Assembly: GCA_902582755.1 (NCBI GenBank)
Contig: CACHSZ010000003.1
Coordinates: 124,001 to 188,000, forward strand
Length of the DNA stretch: 64,000 nucleotides
Direction: 5' to 3'
Source: an uncultured Alphaproteobacteria bacterium
Lineage (GTDB): Bacteria > Pseudomonadota > Alphaproteobacteria > HIMB59 > GCA-002718135
The position numbers and the translations under genes are program-made. The notes beneath the pieces are model-generated. The model was not told the DNA's origin. It saw nothing but the letters and a program-made list of their open reading frames with translations, and ran no database searches. Within the stretch, counting starts at the first letter, position 1. Every line of letters starts with the position of its first letter. This document shows, in pieces, positions 23,588 to 59,214 of this stretch.

Positions 23588-24526
23588 TTAAACTAATTTA
23601 TATTTTGCTTCAAGCTTATCCCAAAAATCTTTCTCTAATTTTACGTTGTTTAATGCATTAATTTGCTTCAATCCTGTAGGTGACGTTACGTTTATTTCTG
23701 TTAGATAATTTCCAATTATATCAATTCCAACAAAAAACAGATTGTGCTCTTTTAGCTTTGGTCCCAAATTTTTGACGATTTCTTTGTCTCTATAAACTAA
23801 GTCAGTTTTACTTGCCTTTCCACCAGCATGAAAATTTGCCTTTAAATTACCTTCTTGGGGTATTCTAGCAACCGAACCAAAATATTCACCATCAAAAAAA
23901 ACGATCCTCCTGTCACCATGCTGTATCTCATTGATAAATTTTTGGACCATTATAGGCAAGTGTAAATATTCCTCTAATATTTTAGAATTGAAATTACTTT
24001 TATCAAATCTATGTATCCCCTCCCCTCCATTGCCATAAAGAGGTTTGGTTATGATATCTTCTTCTTTGTCTAAAAATTCTTCAATAATTTTTAAATCTTT
24101 TGTTACTAAAGTAGGTGGCATAAATTCTTTAAAATTAAATGTAAATAATTTTTCAGTAGAATTTCTAACTGCTGTTGGATCATTCACAACAATTGTTGAA
24201 GATGGAAGTAAGTCCAAAATATAAGTCGATGTAATATAATTCATATCAAAAGGAGGATCTTGTCTTAAAAAGACAAATTGAAAATCTTCTAATCTGGCAA
24301 TTATTTTATTAGATTTAAAATTGAAATAATTTTTTTCATCTAGCAATAACTCTAAATAATATCCAGAAGCTTGAATAGTATTCTCTTTTATGAATAAATC
24401 TTTTGGATTGTAATAAAAAATATCGTAATCTCTTTCTTGCGCCTCATAACCTATTAAAAAAGATGTATCGAATTCATAATCAATTTTTTCAATATTATCC
24501 ATTTGAATTGCTATACTTTTTTTCAT
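23588..24526 (-). CDS. gshB: Glutathione synthetase
   Basis: A 312-residue ATP-grasp ligase that joins gamma-glutamylcysteine and glycine in the last step of glutathione synthesis. The N-terminal IAIQMDNIEKIDYEFDTSF is the family opening. The ATP loop is KPLYGNGGEGI, followed by QKFINEIQHGDRRI and the metal/substrate region ANFHAGGKASKT and EINVTSPTGL. The size is typical. Its ATG overlaps the gshA stop by one base (24526), so both biosynthetic enzymes are translationally coupled. Confidence 0.95.
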   Translation of the reverse strand: MKKSIAIQMDNIEKIDYEFDTSFLIGYEAQERDYDIFYYNPKDLFIKENTIQASGYYLELLLDEKNYFNFKSNKIIARLEDFQFVFLRQDPPFDMNYITSTYILDLLPSSTIVVNDPTAVRNSTEKLFTFNFKEFMPPTLVTKDLKIIEEFLDKEEDIITKPLYGNGGEGIHRFDKSNFNSKILEEYLHLPIMVQKFINEIQHGDRRIVFFDGEYFGSVARIPQEGNLKANFHAGGKASKTDLVYRDKEIVKNLGPKLKEHNLFFVGIDIIGNYLTEINVTSPTGLKQINALNNVKLEKDFWDKLEAKYKLV

Positions 24527-25866
24527 TAGAAAATTTCTTCCTCATATATTTTATTAATATTTTTTTTCCATTCACCATTATATTTGCGGATTAATAAATC
24601 AGCCGGTGAATGGCCATTTGATAGATTTTGTTCTAAATCTTTAAGATAAAATGTTTCATTATATTTTTCATTTTTTACTAGAATATTTCTTTTTTCTAAA
24701 CCTGATTTTGAAATTTCAAATAATTTTTCTGCAATATCTAACAAAATGCCATTTTTGAATTTGGTTTGTAGACCTTCTTTTGGCACTAAACTATTTATTA
24801 AATTTCTATCATTTTGCGTCCAGCTCTCAACGATTTCATTAGTTTTGTCAATACCATCATCATTATATAAAATGCCAATCCAAAAAGCAGGTTGAGAACA
24901 TATTAAATCCCAAGAACATGCATCCATGGAACGTATTTCTAAGAATTGTTTTAATCTAACTTGAGGAAATAAAGTTGATAAGTGGTTTATCCAATCTTCA
25001 ATAGTAGGTTCAATGTGTAAATCTTTAGAAATGTTATTTTTCATAAAATCTCTAAATGTATAATTAGTCATATCTATATATTTATGATTTCTAATTATAA
25101 AATACATTGGCACGTCAAGCGCATGCTCCGCATATTTTTCAAAATTAAAATCTTTATCAAAAACAAATGGTAATAAACCTGTTCTGTCTTTGTCTGTGTG
25201 ATGCCAAAAATGAGATCTTAAACTCTTATATTTAGAAACTTCTTTTTGATCAAAAGGTGAGTTAGCAAATATTGCAGTTGCAATACCTTCAAGATTTAAC
25301 ATTAATCTAAACTTAGCAATCATGTCTTCTTCAGAATGATAATCCAAATTTACTTGGTTAGTGCAAGTACGTTTCATCATATGATGTCCCAGAGTACCAA
25401 CTTTAGGCATGTATTTTTTCATTATGGAGTATCTTTGTTTTGGCATCCAAGGTAATTCATCTAGGGATAAGCTAGGTTCCACGCCTAAGCCCAATAATAT
25501 AAAATTAAATTCTTCACCAATTTCTTTTAACTCTTTTAAATGCCTATTTGTTTCTGTGCAGGTTTGATGAATATTTTTTAATTGTGCTCCAGATAATTCT
25601 ATTTGACCACCTGGTTCTAAAGTTATGCTTTCACCAAATCTTTCTAGAGCAATTATTGTAGTATTTTTATCATCATACTTTGGTTTCCATCCCTTATTTA
25701 CAAATTTTAAAAGAATATCTTTTATACCATTTGTCTCTTGATAAGATAATTGTTTTAAAGTGTCTTTTTTTAGAACAAATTTCTCGTGTTCTACACCTAT
25801 GCGTAAATCATTCTTATCTTTAATTCCTTTATAAAAGTAATCTATTAAATCATTTTTTTTTAACAT
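24526..25866 (-). CDS. gshA: Glutamate-cysteine ligase (alphaproteobacterial/plant type)
   Basis: A 446-residue ligase that makes gamma-glutamylcysteine from glutamate, cysteine and ATP. It belongs to the class-3 group typical of Alphaproteobacteria and plants, shown by LRIGVEHEKFVL near the start, ITLEPGGQIELSGA, MPKVGTLGHHMMKRTCTNQVNLDY and FLEIRSMDACSWD. The protein is full length and cytoplasmic. It precedes gshB with a one-base overlap and follows mgtE with a 23-base gap, so its transcription may begin at the tRNA-Leu promoter or from within mgtE. Confidence 0.93.
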   Translation of the reverse strand: MLKKNDLIDYFYKGIKDKNDLRIGVEHEKFVLKKDTLKQLSYQETNGIKDILLKFVNKGWKPKYDDKNTTIIALERFGESITLEPGGQIELSGAQLKNIHQTCTETNRHLKELKEIGEEFNFILLGLGVEPSLSLDELPWMPKQRYSIMKKYMPKVGTLGHHMMKRTCTNQVNLDYHSEEDMIAKFRLMLNLEGIATAIFANSPFDQKEVSKYKSLRSHFWHHTDKDRTGLLPFVFDKDFNFEKYAEHALDVPMYFIIRNHKYIDMTNYTFRDFMKNNISKDLHIEPTIEDWINHLSTLFPQVRLKQFLEIRSMDACSWDLICSQPAFWIGILYNDDGIDKTNEIVESWTQNDRNLINSLVPKEGLQTKFKNGILLDIAEKLFEISKSGLEKRNILVKNEKYNETFYLKDLEQNLSNGHSPADLLIRKYNGEWKKNINKIYEEEIF

Positions 25867-25889: not shown

Positions 25890-27257
25890 TTAGATTAAAA
25901 ATAAAGTTGCTAATCCAAGGAAAGATAAAAAGCCAAAAACATCTGTTATTGTAGTCAAAATTACTGCAGATGCTAAAGCAGGATCAATTTTCAGCTTATC
26001 TAAAACTAGTGGAATTACAATTCCTGAAAAACCAGCAATTAGTAAGTTTAGTATCATGGCAAGACCTATTATTAAACCCAACATCAAATTATCAAACCAA
26101 TAGATAGAAATTAAAGATATTATAATAGCAAATATGATACCATTTACACCACCAATTAGGGTTTCTTTGGTTATTATTTTTAACGCATTACTTGTTGTTA
26201 GTTCTTTCACAGCAATTGCTCGGACTGCAACTGTTAAAGTTTGAGTGCCAGCATTAGCACCCATAGAAGCTACTATTGGCATTAAAATAGCTAAGGCCAC
26301 TACTTTTTCTATTGCAGCTTCGAACAAACCTATTACTATAGAAGCTACGACTGCCGTCATTAAATTTACAATTAACCATGAAATTCTTGATTTTGTTGTA
26401 GTAATAACAGACTCGTATAAATCTGTATGGTCTACACCTCCAAGCTTTAAAATATCTTCTTCTCTTTCTTCTTCAATAACTTCAACAACATCATCAACTG
26501 TAATGGATCCAATAATTTTTTTATGACTATCAATTACAGGGGCACTGACTAATCCATATTTATTAAATAATAAAGCTACATCTTCTTGATCAGCATTTAC
26601 ATCAATTAATCGTAACTCTTTATTTGATATTGAATTTAATTTAATTTCTCTTTTTGAACCCATCAATCTTCCTAATGGGACTACACCTTTTGCTTCTTCA
26701 TTTTTATTTATTAAATAAATATCATAGAAATCTTCTGGTAAAGTCTCTTTATTATTTCGTAAATAATCAATTGTCTGTCCGACATTCCATGTTTGGTTAA
26801 TGGCAACAAATTGTCTTTGCATTAATCTACCAGCAGAGTCTTCTGGATAATTCAAACCTTCTTCAACTAAGGTTCTTTCTTCTTTATCTAAATTTTCTAA
26901 AAATATATTTTTATCTTTTTCTTCTAAATCCTCAGCTAAGTCTACCGCATCATCAATATCTAAACTTTTTGCATTATTTGCTAATTGTTTTATATCTAAA
27001 GTTTCTATTATTTCCTCTCGAACACTATCATTTAGATAAGTTAGTATTTCAGGATCAAAATTTTTATCAATTATATTTAAAAGGCTTAATCTTAAAACAG
27101 GATCTAAATTTTGAAGAATATCTGCAATATCTGCATTATGAATTTCTTTAAGATAAGAAAGAATTTTATTATATTTGTAATTTTCTAAATAATCAGTAAT
27201 TAATTCAACAGGTTTAATTGAGGAATCTTGATCTTTTTTAATAATAATTTCTTCCAT
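25890..27257 (-). CDS. mgtE: Magnesium transporter MgtE
   Basis: Mg2+ channel/transporter of the inner membrane, 455 residues from the chosen ATG. It has the order expected for MgtE: a helical N-domain (about 25-130), a CBS pair with DFYDIYLIN and VVEVIEEEREEDILKLGGV, and a C-terminal pore of five helices with NLMTAVVASIVIGLFE, MPIVASMGANAGTQTLTV and TTITDVFGFLSFLG. An ATG at 27293 would lie within the tRNA-Leu gene and was rejected. The chosen ATG begins six bases after the encoded CCA of the tRNA and has no Shine-Dalgarno, so tRNA 3' processing would leave an almost leaderless mgtE mRNA. Confidence 0.92.
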   Translation of the reverse strand: MEEIIIKKDQDSSIKPVELITDYLENYKYNKILSYLKEIHNADIADILQNLDPVLRLSLLNIIDKNFDPEILTYLNDSVREEIIETLDIKQLANNAKSLDIDDAVDLAEDLEEKDKNIFLENLDKEERTLVEEGLNYPEDSAGRLMQRQFVAINQTWNVGQTIDYLRNNKETLPEDFYDIYLINKNEEAKGVVPLGRLMGSKREIKLNSISNKELRLIDVNADQEDVALLFNKYGLVSAPVIDSHKKIIGSITVDDVVEVIEEEREEDILKLGGVDHTDLYESVITTTKSRISWLIVNLMTAVVASIVIGLFEAAIEKVVALAILMPIVASMGANAGTQTLTVAVRAIAVKELTTSNALKIITKETLIGGVNGIIFAIIISLISIYWFDNLMLGLIIGLAMILNLLIAGFSGIVIPLVLDKLKIDPALASAVILTTITDVFGFLSFLGLATLFLI

Positions 27258-27263
27258 ATAAAT

Positions 27264-27350
27264 TGGTGCGGCTGAGAAGACTTGAACTTCCACAGGATAA
27301 ATCCCACAGCGACCTCAACGCTGCGCGTATACCAATTCCGCCACAGCCGC
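27264..27350 (-). tRNA. tRNA-Leu (anticodon GAG)
   Basis: The minus strand folds into a type-II tRNA: acceptor GCGGCTG pairing with CAGCCGC, discriminator A and encoded CCA, a long variable arm, a T-arm with GTTCAAGTC and the anticodon stem-loop CAGCG-TTGAGGT-CGCTG, giving GAG. It reads CUC/CUU leucine codons. It has a good promoter of its own and leads directly into mgtE. Confidence 0.95.
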
Positions 27351-27364
27351 ATATTTAGTAGAAT

Positions 27365-27393
27365 TAAATATCAGATAGGATATTAACTATCAA
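27365..27393 (-). promoter_or_regulatory. Candidate promoter of tRNA-Leu and mgtE
   Basis: TTGATA (27388-27393) and TATTTA (27365-27370) on the minus strand are 17 bases apart. The -10 ends 14 bases before the tRNA 5' end, a normal distance. It would drive tRNA-Leu and, by read-through, mgtE and the gsh genes. Confidence 0.5.
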
Positions 27394-27409
27394 TAAAGTT
27401 AAATATAAT

Positions 27410-28057
27410 ATGAAACAGATTGAAATAAAAATATCTAATGATGAAATAGATTATGAAAATGCATTGATGTATATGGAGTCTAGAGTTAATGATATAAGCA
27501 ATAATCAATCTCAAGAATTATTGTGGTTTCTAAGTCATAATCATATTTTTACTCAGGGAACAAGTGCTTCAAAAGAAGAAATATTAAATTCAAATGTTAT
27601 TGATGTTATAAAATCTAATCGTGGAGGAAAAACAACATACCATGGTCCTGGGCAAAGAGTTGTTTATTTTATGTTAAATTTAAATAATAAAAAAAAAGAT
27701 ATAAGAAGGTTTATTACTATAATTGAAAATTCTCTTATATCTTTTCTATCTAATTATAATGTTGAAGCGCAAGCATTTAAAGATAGAGTTGGTATTTGGG
27801 TAACTAAAAGTAATAAAATTACATTTGATAAAGAAAAAAAAATTGGCGCAATTGGATTACGGATTAAAAAATGGATCACATACCATGGCTTGAGTTTTAA
27901 TATTAATCCTGATTTAAAATATTACAATTACATTCACTCATGTGGTTTAAAAGAATATCAAAATACTTCAATGGAAGAATTAGGTATTAAATTAGAGCAA
28001 TCTGAATTTGATAATAAATTTAAAAAAATTTTTATTGAAAAATTACAAAATATTTAA
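27410..28057 (+). CDS. lipB: Octanoyltransferase LipB
   Basis: Transfers octanoyl groups from acyl carrier protein to lipoyl domains of 2-oxoacid dehydrogenases and GcvH, the first step of lipoate synthesis. The 215-residue protein has the LipB blocks SNRGGKTTYHGPGQ, the catalytic lysine region GAIGLRIKKWITYHG and the catalytic cysteine in HSCGL. It lies alone on the plus strand, divergent from tRNA-Leu. Its last 15 bases overlap the end of the convergent pseudouridine synthase gene, which leaves no room for a terminator between them. Confidence 0.93.
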   Translation: MKQIEIKISNDEIDYENALMYMESRVNDISNNQSQELLWFLSHNHIFTQGTSASKEEILNSNVIDVIKSNRGGKTTYHGPGQRVVYFMLNLNNKKKDIRRFITIIENSLISFLSNYNVEAQAFKDRVGIWVTKSNKITFDKEKKIGAIGLRIKKWITYHGLSFNINPDLKYYNYIHSCGLKEYQNTSMEELGIKLEQSEFDNKFKKIFIEKLQNI

Positions 28058-56418: not shown

Positions 56419-56633
56419 TAAAAACCTGATCCTATTTCAATTATTTTTCTTATTGAAAAAGACCATATTTGATCAGTTAGAAGAAAAAATAATGAGAATA
56501 ATATTATTAATAATATGACTATTGCAGAAGAAATAAAAGTATCTCTTCTTTGAGGCCAAGTTACTTTTTGTAATTCTTGTCTAACCTGTCTTACAAAAAG
56601 AGCTGGTGATGTTTTCTTTTTTTCAATATTCAT
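56418..56633 (-). CDS. secE: Protein translocase subunit SecE
   Basis: Clamp subunit of the Sec translocon, a single-helix form of 71 residues. The cytoplasmic amphipathic helix VRQVRQELQKVTWPQRRDTF is the family hallmark, and one membrane helix follows (SSAIVILLIILFSLFFLL). It starts 14 bases after the encoded CCA of tRNA-Trp, with only a weak ribosome-binding site, so processing of the tRNA sets the 5' end of its mRNA. Confidence 0.95.
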   Translation of the reverse strand: MNIEKKKTSPALFVRQVRQELQKVTWPQRRDTFISSAIVILLIILFSLFFLLTDQIWSFSIRKIIEIGSGF

Positions 56634-56647
56634 ATTTTCATTTCTTT

Positions 56648-56723
56648 TGGCAGGAGTGGCAGGACTTGAACCCGCAGCCCCCGGTTTTGGAGACCGGTGC
56701 TCTACCAGTTGAGCTACACTCCT
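56648..56723 (-). tRNA. tRNA-Trp (anticodon CCA)
   Basis: Minus-strand cloverleaf with acceptor AGGAGTG pairing with CACTCCT, discriminator G, encoded CCA, anticodon loop CTCCAAA and T-arm GGGTTCAAGTCC. It sits between tuf and secE, as in many bacteria. Confidence 0.97.
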
Positions 56724-56760
56724 AATAAGTATTGGCTAACTGATAGAGCGGTCTCTAAAA

Positions 56761-57951
56761 CTATTCAATAATTTCAGCTACAACTCCAGCGCCAACTGTT
56801 CTTCCACCTTCTCTAATTGCAAATTTTAAACCTTTATCCATTGCAATTGGAGACAAAAGAGTAACTTCCATAGCAATATTATCACCAGGCATTACCATTT
56901 CGGTACCTTCGGGCAATTTAATTGTTCCGGTTACATCAGTTGTTCTAAAGTAGAATTGAGGTCTGTAGTTTGAAAAGAATGGGGTATGTCTTCCACCCTC
57001 TTCTTTTTTTAATACATATGCTTCTGCTTTAAATTTTGTATGGGGTTTTATTGAACCGGGTTTTGCTAATACTTGACCACGTTCAACTTCTTCTCTTTTT
57101 GTTCCACGAAGAAGAACACCAACGTTATCACCGGCCTCACCAGAATCTAGAAGTTTTCTAAACATCTCAACTCCAGTACAAGTAGTTTTTTGAGGATCTC
57201 TTATTCCTAGAATTTCAATTTCCTCTCCAACTTTTACTTGACCTTGTTCAATTCTTCCAGTTACGACTGTACCTCTACCAGAAATTGAAAATACATCTTC
57301 AACTGGCATTAGGAAAGGCTGATCTACAGGTCGGCTAGGTTGTGGTATATGTTCATCAACTGCTTTCATTAATTCCATAATTGAGTTTTTTCCAATTTCA
57401 TCGTCTCTACCTTCAAGAGCTGCTAAAGCTGAACCCTTAATGATTGGGATAGTATCACCTGGGAATTCATATGAAGTTAGAAGTTCTCTGATTTCCATCT
57501 CAACTAGATCAATTAGTTCTTTGTCATCTACTTGATCAACTTTGTTCATGTATACAACGAGAGCAGGTACACCTACCTGTCTAGCTAAAAGTATGTGTTC
57601 TCTAGTTTGAGGCATTGGTCCGTCGGCTGCATTAACAACTAAGATACCGCCATCCATTTGAGCTGCACCAGTAATCATGTTCTTAACATAATCTGCGTGT
57701 CCAGGACAATCTACGTGAGCATAATGTCTTGCTTCAGTTTCATATTCAACGTGTGCAGTAGAAATTGTAATACCACGTTCTCTTTCTTCAGGTGCTTTGT
57801 CAATGTTTGCGTAATCTGTAAATTCTGCTCCACCTGACTCTGCTAATATTTTTGTTATAGCAGCAGTTAATGTTGTTTTACCATGGTCAACGTGACCAAC
57901 AGTACCTATGTTACAATGCGGTTTGTTTCTTTCGAATTTTGCTTTAGCCAT
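56761..57951 (-). CDS. tuf: Elongation factor Tu
   Basis: GTPase that brings aminoacyl-tRNA to the ribosome, 396 residues. G1 is [16 protein letters not shown]2 is [16 protein letters not shown]3 is [15 protein letters not shown] and G4 is MNKVDQVDD. Domains II and III are complete to [11 protein letters not shown]. This is the only tuf copy in the window, because the str operon lacks one between fusA and rpsJ. It is preceded by GGGGT and co-transcribed with tRNA-Gly and tRNA-Tyr. Confidence 0.97.
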
Positions 57952-57976
57952 TTTTTACCCCAATAATAATTTGTTA

Positions 57977-58050
57977 TGGAGCGGGTGAAGGGAATCGAAC
58001 CCTCGTAGCCAGCTTGGAAGGCTGGAGCTTTACCACTAAGCTACACCCGC
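57977..58050 (-). tRNA. tRNA-Gly (anticodon TCC)
   Basis: Minus-strand cloverleaf with acceptor GCGGGTG pairing with CACCCGC, discriminator T, encoded CCA, anticodon loop CTTCCAA and T-arm GGGTTCGATTCCC. It lies 25 bases upstream of tuf. Confidence 0.97.
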
Positions 58051-58108
58051 AACTAAACTGACTGCTTCACACACTCACTTTAATGCTTTCATCCCATTAC
58101 CTCCATAA

Positions 58109-58194
58109 TGGTGGAGGGGGTAGGATTCGAACCTACGTACGCTCACGCGGGCGGATTTACAGTCCGCTGCCTTTAACCACTCGACCACCCCTCC
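58109..58194 (-). tRNA. tRNA-Tyr (anticodon GTA)
   Basis: Minus-strand type-II tRNA with a long variable arm, acceptor GGAGGGG pairing with CCCCTCC, discriminator A, encoded CCA, anticodon loop CTGTAAA and T-arm TAGGTTCGAATCCTA. It is the first gene of the run into tuf and the ribosomal supercluster. Confidence 0.97.
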
Positions 58195-58364
58195 GTTTGA
58201 AGAAATTGGCCAATACTAATAAATTAGTATATATGTCAATCTAAAACAGCAACTTCACCTTTGCAAAATACGTATACTCGTAAAAGCAACGGCCTTTTAG
58301 ACAAAAAATGCCATTTTGTACATATCTAGATTGTATTAATTAGACAAATCTGTGATATTAAACC
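58195..58364. other. 170-base divergent intergenic region
   Basis: This gap between tRNA-Tyr (minus) and rlmB (plus) is the longest non-coding stretch besides the L10 leader region. Beyond the tRNA-Tyr promoter I see no recognisable gene, repeat or clear hairpin. A promoter for rlmB should lie near its right end, but no confident hexamers were found. Confidence 0.5.
58210..58239 (-). promoter_or_regulatory. Candidate promoter of tRNA-Tyr/tRNA-Gly/tuf
   Basis: A consensus -35 TTGACA occupies 58234-58239 on the minus strand. The -10 is uncertain: TATTGG at 58210-58215 (18-base spacer) or TAGTAT at 58213-58218 (15-base spacer). It begins 15 bases before the tRNA-Tyr 5' end. Confidence 0.5.
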
Positions 58365-59126
58365 ATGAGTAAGTTTAGAAATAGTAAATCTAATAAAAAT
58401 CAAGGAATTCATACAATTTTTGGTCAACATTCTGTTAAAGCGGCTCTCCAAAATGATAAAAGGGAGCATATTGAGCTAATAATTAGTAAAAATCAGATTA
58501 ATTTTGCAAAAAAATATGAATCTAAAATGCAAAAAATTAGTATTCTTCCTCAAAATGAATTCACAAGAAGATTTGGAAACGAGAACGCAACTCAGGGGGT
58601 AGTTTTAAAAACAAAAGATTTTGCTAGGCCAGGTTTAGAAGAATTTATAAAAGTAGAAAGTAAAAAAACAAAATCAGTAATATTAATTTTAGATCACGTA
58701 ACTGATCCTCAAAATATTGGCTCAATAATGAGATCATGTGCATTATTTGATTGCGCAGGAATTATAGTTGGTAAAGATAATTCACCAGAATTGACTTCAT
58801 CACTTTATAAATCAGCTTCTGGTGCTGCAGAAATTGTAAATTATATTAGAGTGACAAATATAAGAAGAGCCATTTCTTTTCTTAAAAAAAATAATTATTG
58901 GATTTATGGCTTTGATAGTTCGAAAAATAAAAATTCAAAATTAAATTTTTCAAAAAAATCGGTATTAGTTTTTGGTTCTGAAGGAAAAGGTATTAGAGAA
59001 TTAATAAAAAAAGAATGTGATGAAATAATTCAGATAAACATGAAAAACAATTTAAAATTTGAAATTGATAGTTTGAATGTTTCTAACGCAACATCGATTG
59101 CTTTATATCAGTTTTACTCAACTTAA
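58365..59126 (+). CDS. rlmB: 23S rRNA (guanosine-2'-O)-methyltransferase RlmB/TrmH family
   Basis: A 253-residue SPOUT-class RNA methyltransferase. The N-terminal substrate-binding domain opens with GIHTIFGQHSVKAALQNDKR. The three SpoU motifs are ILDHVTDPQNIGSIMRSCAL, VFGSEGKGIREL and SLNVSNATSIALYQF, which form the trefoil-knot SAM site. RlmB (G2251 of 23S rRNA in E. coli) is the likely member given the N-terminal domain; related tRNA methylases are possible. It stands alone on the plus strand between two minus-strand tRNA genes. Confidence 0.88.
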   Translation: MSKFRNSKSNKNQGIHTIFGQHSVKAALQNDKREHIELIISKNQINFAKKYESKMQKISILPQNEFTRRFGNENATQGVVLKTKDFARPGLEEFIKVESKKTKSVILILDHVTDPQNIGSIMRSCALFDCAGIIVGKDNSPELTSSLYKSASGAAEIVNYIRVTNIRRAISFLKKNNYWIYGFDSSKNKNSKLNFSKKSVLVFGSEGKGIRELIKKECDEIIQINMKNNLKFEIDSLNVSNATSIALYQFYST

Positions 59127-59138
59127 ATGTTATCAGGG

Positions 59139-59214
<76 letters not shown>

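Follow-up and report, generated by a model that had tools for sequence, protein, structure and literature searches.

The tRNA-Leu(GAG)-mgtE junction of a streamlined marine alphaproteobacterium: an old gene neighbourhood, its compaction and a possible near-leaderless message

The window analysed here, i.e. the whole stretch of 64,000 nucleotides from an uncultured alphaproteobacterium, carries on its minus strand a tRNA-Leu(GAG) gene directly followed by mgtE and by two gsh genes, with a lipB-like gene diverging on the other strand:

23588-24526, minus strand: gshB, glutathione synthetase (Pfam GSH-S_ATP, GSH-S_N)
24526-25866, minus strand: gshA-like glutamate-cysteine ligase gene, 23 nt 3' of mgtE (Pfam GCS2)
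25890-27257, minus strand: mgtE, Mg2+ transporter of 455 aa (Pfam MgtE, MgtE_N, CBS)
27258-27263, minus strand: six-base spacer ATTTAT from CCA to ATG, without Shine-Dalgarno (SD) motif (sequence; SD scan)
27264-27350, minus strand: tRNA-Leu(GAG), CCA encoded (ARAGORN; Rfam RF00005 at 27267-27350, 52.7 bits)
27363-27393, minus strand: promoter-like element, TTGATA (27393-27388), 17-nt spacer, TATTTA (27370-27365)
27410-28057, plus strand: lipB-like lipoyl transferase gene, divergent, 59 bp from the tRNA gene (Pfam LplA-B_cat)

Read along the minus strand, the junction is CAGCCGCACCA-ATTTAT-ATG, where the last base of the CCA is 27264 and the mgtE ATG occupies 27257-27255. A preliminary description of this DNA had placed this ATG six bases past the CCA and had found it devoid of an SD. 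Both statements hold, the former on the sequence, ARAGORN and Rfam, the latter on the SD scan, which found no motif before the ATG, and on an anti-SD duplex score of +1.2 kcal/mol; the 3' end of the 16S rRNA of the same genome has CACCTCC. Concerning known RNA families, the tRNA is the only Rfam match between 26900 and 27600 with E-values up to 1, and control of mgtE by a Mg2+ riboswitch (M-box) was rejected on this ground.

Neither a short gap nor a missing SD singles out mgtE, since both are usual in its own genome. Over 384 kb of this genome, the median gap between coding sequences (CDSs) on the same strand is 3 nt, and 187 out of 289 gaps are of 16 nt or less, overlaps included; in the same 384 kb, an SD-like motif precedes 49 of the 200 genes with an unambiguous ATG and is absent from the other 151. 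Among these 200, the first genes have it in 15 of 76 cases (vs. ca. 5% expected from shuffling). In the window, such a motif stands before 26 of 64 genes, many of which code for ribosomal proteins. At 49/200 in the genome and 26/64 in the window, the idea of a missing SD as a speciality of mgtE was discarded. The junction does differ from those between two CDSs: directly 5' of the start lies a stable tRNA, and coupling to a ribosome arriving from upstream is impossible. A leaderless-promoter signature was also sought in the 61 SD-less first genes, where TATAAT-like hexamers do not clearly peak at the distance that such promoters require.

The window belongs to the GTDB order HIMB59, which we take to be AEGEAN-169. 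This assignment fits PMC10308909, in which AEGEAN-169 is characterised as streamlined and averages a coding density of 96.2%. As a whole, mgtE was detected in 110 of the 162 genomes of the order, many of them partial single-cell genomes, and in 19 of the 20 that are at least 90% complete; the relatives carrying it include uncultured marine Alphaproteobacteria, often single-cell 'AG-' isolates, and MarineAlpha5 bins. Ninety of these 110 loci were examined, two fragment-only loci and 18 from the second family being omitted. All 90 possess a tRNA-Leu(GAG) gene with encoded CCA directly 5' of mgtE, at 4 to 22 nt, and all 90 have lipB divergent upstream. A shift of this gene order in close relatives, which the preliminary description had foreseen as a point against its reading, is thus not seen in any of the 90 loci. 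Among the 69 loci of the window's genus, the gap is 6 nt in 56 cases, 4 nt in three, 5 nt in one, 7 nt in two, 8 nt in two and 9 nt in four; the remaining locus, L024, is frame-shifted at the mgtE start. An SD motif was found in none of 68 gaps of this genus. As for the other genera of the family, the gaps are of 8 to 13 nt with an SD motif in five out of six loci, so that a leaderless reading is unneeded there; the gap of genus g4 contains AGGTGG. In the second family, gaps range from 7 to 22 nt, with an SD motif in one of 15 loci. Finally, gshA follows mgtE in 66 of the 69 loci of the window's genus vs. none of the six from other genera of the family and none of the 15 from the second family: the gsh linkage is limited to the window's genus.

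A class-wide search for mgtE matched 214 out of 288 genomes, and 88 loci outside the order were examined (the 28 best, and 60 picked as one per further family). A tRNA-Leu(GAG) gene on the same strand and at most 600 nt 5' of mgtE was found in 33 of the 88 (tblastn); the pair is absent from 54, and one locus gave no tblastn hit. In these outside pairs, the gap to the likely ATG is mostly of 40 to 200 nt, the shortest ones, judged by eye, being 24 nt (L173) and 27 nt (L154). An SD-like motif precedes the first suitable ATG, chosen automatically, in 19 of the 33 pairs, and under a strict rule a terminator stands immediately 3' of the tRNA in at least two. The lipB gene diverges upstream in at least 25 of the 88 loci, a lower bound since many of the stretches covered only about 1 kb upstream. 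With 33 outside loci keeping the pair, usually 40 to 200 nt apart, the neighbourhood is an old one compressed by streamlining; between tRNA-Leu(GAG) and mgtE, the spacer, any terminator and, in most cases, the SD have gone in the order.

The occurrence of such joints was then surveyed across the tRNA genes of five genomes, a joint counting as tight when a frame of 60 codons or more opens with an ATG no further than 16 nt 3' of a tRNA gene. Six of the 31 tRNA genes of the window's own genome (G000) have one, secE after tRNA-Trp (14 nt) being left out of this count:

mgtE, 6 nt after tRNA-Leu(GAG)
60-aa frame, an unproven gene, 6 nt after tRNA-Lys(TTT) (L120)
DUF4174 gene, 6 nt after tRNA-Thr(GGT) (L141)
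dapA, 8 nt after tRNA-Ser(GCT) (L144)
VTT-domain-like gene, below Pfam's cut-off, 12 nt after tRNA-Leu(CAA) (L145)
tig, 16 nt after tRNA-Leu(TAG) (L147)

Comparable numbers were obtained for three other streamlined genomes: for G070, from the window's genus (7 of 31), for G110, from the second family (7 of 32), and for G345, a 1.2 Mb genome from another family of the same class (7 of 30), where coding frames lie 2, 3, 4, 4 and 6 nt after tRNAs (L410-L439). The 3.9 Mb relative G309 has none in 30, the loci covering 30 of its 39 tRNA matches. Within this small sample of five genomes, tight tRNA-CDS joints follow genome compaction. The CCA is encoded in every tRNA gene examined for this survey. 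The 60-codon frame 6 nt after tRNA-Lys(TTT) is present in both the window's own genome and G070 (L224), with a nearly identical N-terminal sequence, and may encode a small protein.

Between lipB and the tRNA gene, the promoter-like element lies 14 nt from the latter (counted from TATTTA), and its spacer ends in TG plus one base. In the window's family, a TATCTG core is found in 75 of 75 loci and the 17-nt spacing from TTG.T. to the TATTTA-type hexamer in 67 of 75, while the position separating TG from TATTTA is variable (A in 61 loci, T in eight, C in three and G in three), as is the case in an extended -10. Allowing up to three mismatches, the element occurs once in its own genome. Its make-up suggests a -35/extended -10 promoter. 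Part of the spacer, CTATCTG, is conserved, and the element may hold a regulator site. No terminator was found in the six-base gap of the window between tRNA-Leu(GAG) and mgtE, and the gap is too short to hold a promoter. Given the conserved element 5' of the tRNA and a gap without room for a second one, tRNA-Leu(GAG) and mgtE are likely co-transcribed.

The reading that we consider rather probable is that of a single tRNA-Leu(GAG)-mgtE unit, streamlined from an old neighbourhood, whose mgtE part is read as a near-leaderless message once the tRNA has been cut away. Streamlining of the old block of divergent lipB, tRNA-Leu(GAG) and mgtE has deleted the spacer, along with any terminator of the tRNA and any separate mgtE leader; transcription would start at the conserved promoter just 5' of the tRNA; removal of the tRNA would leave mgtE with at most about six leader bases; and translation would begin, without an SD, at the ATG six bases past the CCA. 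Co-transcription, the processing step and the near-leaderless reading of mgtE are what we infer from this layout. With a folded tRNA right against the start codon and no translational coupling from upstream, mgtE would most likely become readable after tRNA removal.

How the 3' end of the tRNA is matured bears on what the message would look like. The RNase_Z model scored above its curated cut-off in none of 69 genomes of the order, with weaker matches in 64; the window's family has a weaker RNase Z-like protein, and in the window's own genome a 275-aa protein of the metallo-beta-lactamase fold scores under every cut-off of the RNase Z models that it matches. RNase E was found above the cut-off in 62 of the 69. 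In the second family, only weak RNase Z-type matches were seen, which fits the CCA being encoded in all the tRNA genes examined. If maturation proceeds by RNase E and trimming, the cut may fall in the gap or in the start codon. Where RNase E cuts downstream and exonucleases then work back to the tRNA, a given transcript may supply the tRNA or the mRNA, not both.

It is rather unlikely, on our estimate, that the unprocessed tRNA-mgtE transcript is what is translated, with the 30S subunit binding an A/U-rich, unstructured start while the tRNA is still attached and processing competing with the message. The start region is indeed unstructured when taken without the tRNA (39 nt folding at 0 kcal/mol), SD-less starts are the usual case among the 200 genes with an unambiguous ATG, and the AGGTGG of genus g4 would suit translation beside a tRNA. 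An initiating ribosome six bases from the tRNA would, however, overlap the folded acceptor stem, as follows from the general size of the ribosome footprint, and the 68 gaps of the window's genus lack any SD.

Less probable still is an mgtE promoter located inside the tRNA gene, which would yield an mRNA whose leader contains a stretch of the tRNA. A promoter would fit into the length of the tRNA gene, and the constraint on that gene would presumably hide it. Yet a consensus promoter scan of positions 27100-27500 gave no minus-strand site, a scan that likewise did not list the conserved upstream element, and it is 5' of the tRNA that this conserved element stands.

A wrongly annotated mgtE start, the true one being a non-canonical downstream codon or a GTG inside the tRNA, is very improbable. 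Conservation is lower over codons 1-38 of mgtE than in the domain core, which leaves some room for it, but the ATG is present in 68 of the 69 loci of the window's genus. Within the window, the next in-frame ATG, GTG or TTG is a TTG 408 nt beyond the CCA, at about codon 135 (elsewhere in the genus, such a codon may come as early as codon 13), so the alternative start inside mgtE that the preliminary description had named as a possible objection is not found nearby. The in-frame GTG within the tRNA (27293) was rejected as a conserved start: gaps differ by single bases and are not kept in multiples of three, which breaks the tRNA frame, and in L058 a TAA stop stands in frame immediately 5' of the ATG. 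As far as the sequence can tell, mgtE translation starts at the 27257 ATG.

Hardly credible is a dedicated Mg2+ link, in which tRNA processing would act as a Mg2+ sensor governing the output of mgtE, since tRNA folding and RNase P both require Mg2+. In its favour are the function of the transporter and the age and wide spread of its pairing with the tRNA (33 of the 88 loci outside the order), but dapA, tig, the DUF4174 gene and the VTT-domain gene are equally near tRNAs, gaps are long in most relatives outside the order, and Rfam has no Mg2+ riboswitch or other element here besides the tRNA. Since several other tRNA genes show this layout, it is better taken as a by-product of compaction than as such a switch. 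The preliminary description had also suggested that Mg2+ uptake and the following gsh genes are tied to tRNA synthesis. This part found no support in the comparison: gshA comes after mgtE in the window's genus alone, and the genes of the genome are as a rule SD-less and closely packed.

Extended from mgtE to the other tight joints, near-leaderless translation following tRNA processing is a plausible reading for the class as a whole. A wider proposal is made only tentatively, and we hold it to be possible but doubtful: about one fifth of the tRNA genes of streamlined marine Alphaproteobacteria would adjoin a protein gene, mostly SD-less, and tRNA maturation would make near-leaderless messages, so that the supply of MgtE, DapA, trigger factor and others would hang on tRNA transcription and processing, a partial bacterial tRNA punctuation. 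If tRNA removal does open start codons, some abundant ocean bacteria make messages in a mitochondria-like manner, and translation start in SD-poor streamlined genomes becomes directly testable at a few defined junctions. If it does not, the locus still illustrates clearly how streamlining strips away the terminator and leader that once separated a tRNA from the gene long next to it. No paper describing near-leaderless mRNAs generated by tRNA processing in bacteria was encountered in searches of one literature collection.

Operons that join tRNA and protein genes are known in bacteria, e.g. thrU-tyrU-glyT-thrT-tufB and tRNA-Trp-secE. As in these, mgtE is a protein gene following a tRNA on the same strand with little spacer, and neither a terminator nor a promoter was found between the two, as in tRNA-mRNA dicistronic operons. 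The window also contains, at 56500-59214, tRNA-Thr, tRNA-Tyr, tRNA-Gly, tuf, tRNA-Trp and secE, the classical tRNA-tuf-secE arrangement. There, tuf is preceded by a 25-nt spacer with an SD-like GGGG, whereas the mgtE spacer is of 6 nt and lacks an SD. From its layout, the tRNA-Leu-mgtE pair can be regarded as a variant of the tufB/secE kind of operon, with a spacer too short for an SD.

In animal mitochondria, tRNAs separate the protein genes and their excision releases the mRNAs (tRNA punctuation). The mgtE junction resembles this in that the start codon comes right after the tRNA and hardly any leader would remain if the tRNA were excised. It differs in that only some genes follow tRNAs, that promoters are of the ordinary kind and that the excision is one we infer. 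With most genes not beside tRNAs, and a CDS within 16 nt at 6 of the 31 tRNA genes of the genome, this is not punctuation of the mitochondrial type.

Leaderless and short-leader bacterial mRNAs, as described in PMC9031893, PMC4681348 and PMC3616915, carry their AUG at the 5' end or close to it and lack an SD; the mgtE message would likewise have an AUG start with no SD upstream. Leaders of less than 10 nt are classed as leaderless in bacteria in PMC4681348, and 171 leaderless starts are given for the alphaproteobacterium Sinorhizobium meliloti in PMC3616915. The leaderless mRNAs of these studies have mapped transcription starts, whereas the 5' end of the mgtE message would arise from tRNA processing. 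With leaders below 10 nt counting as leaderless, and leaderless transcripts occurring in Alphaproteobacteria, a near-leaderless reading of mgtE is possible.
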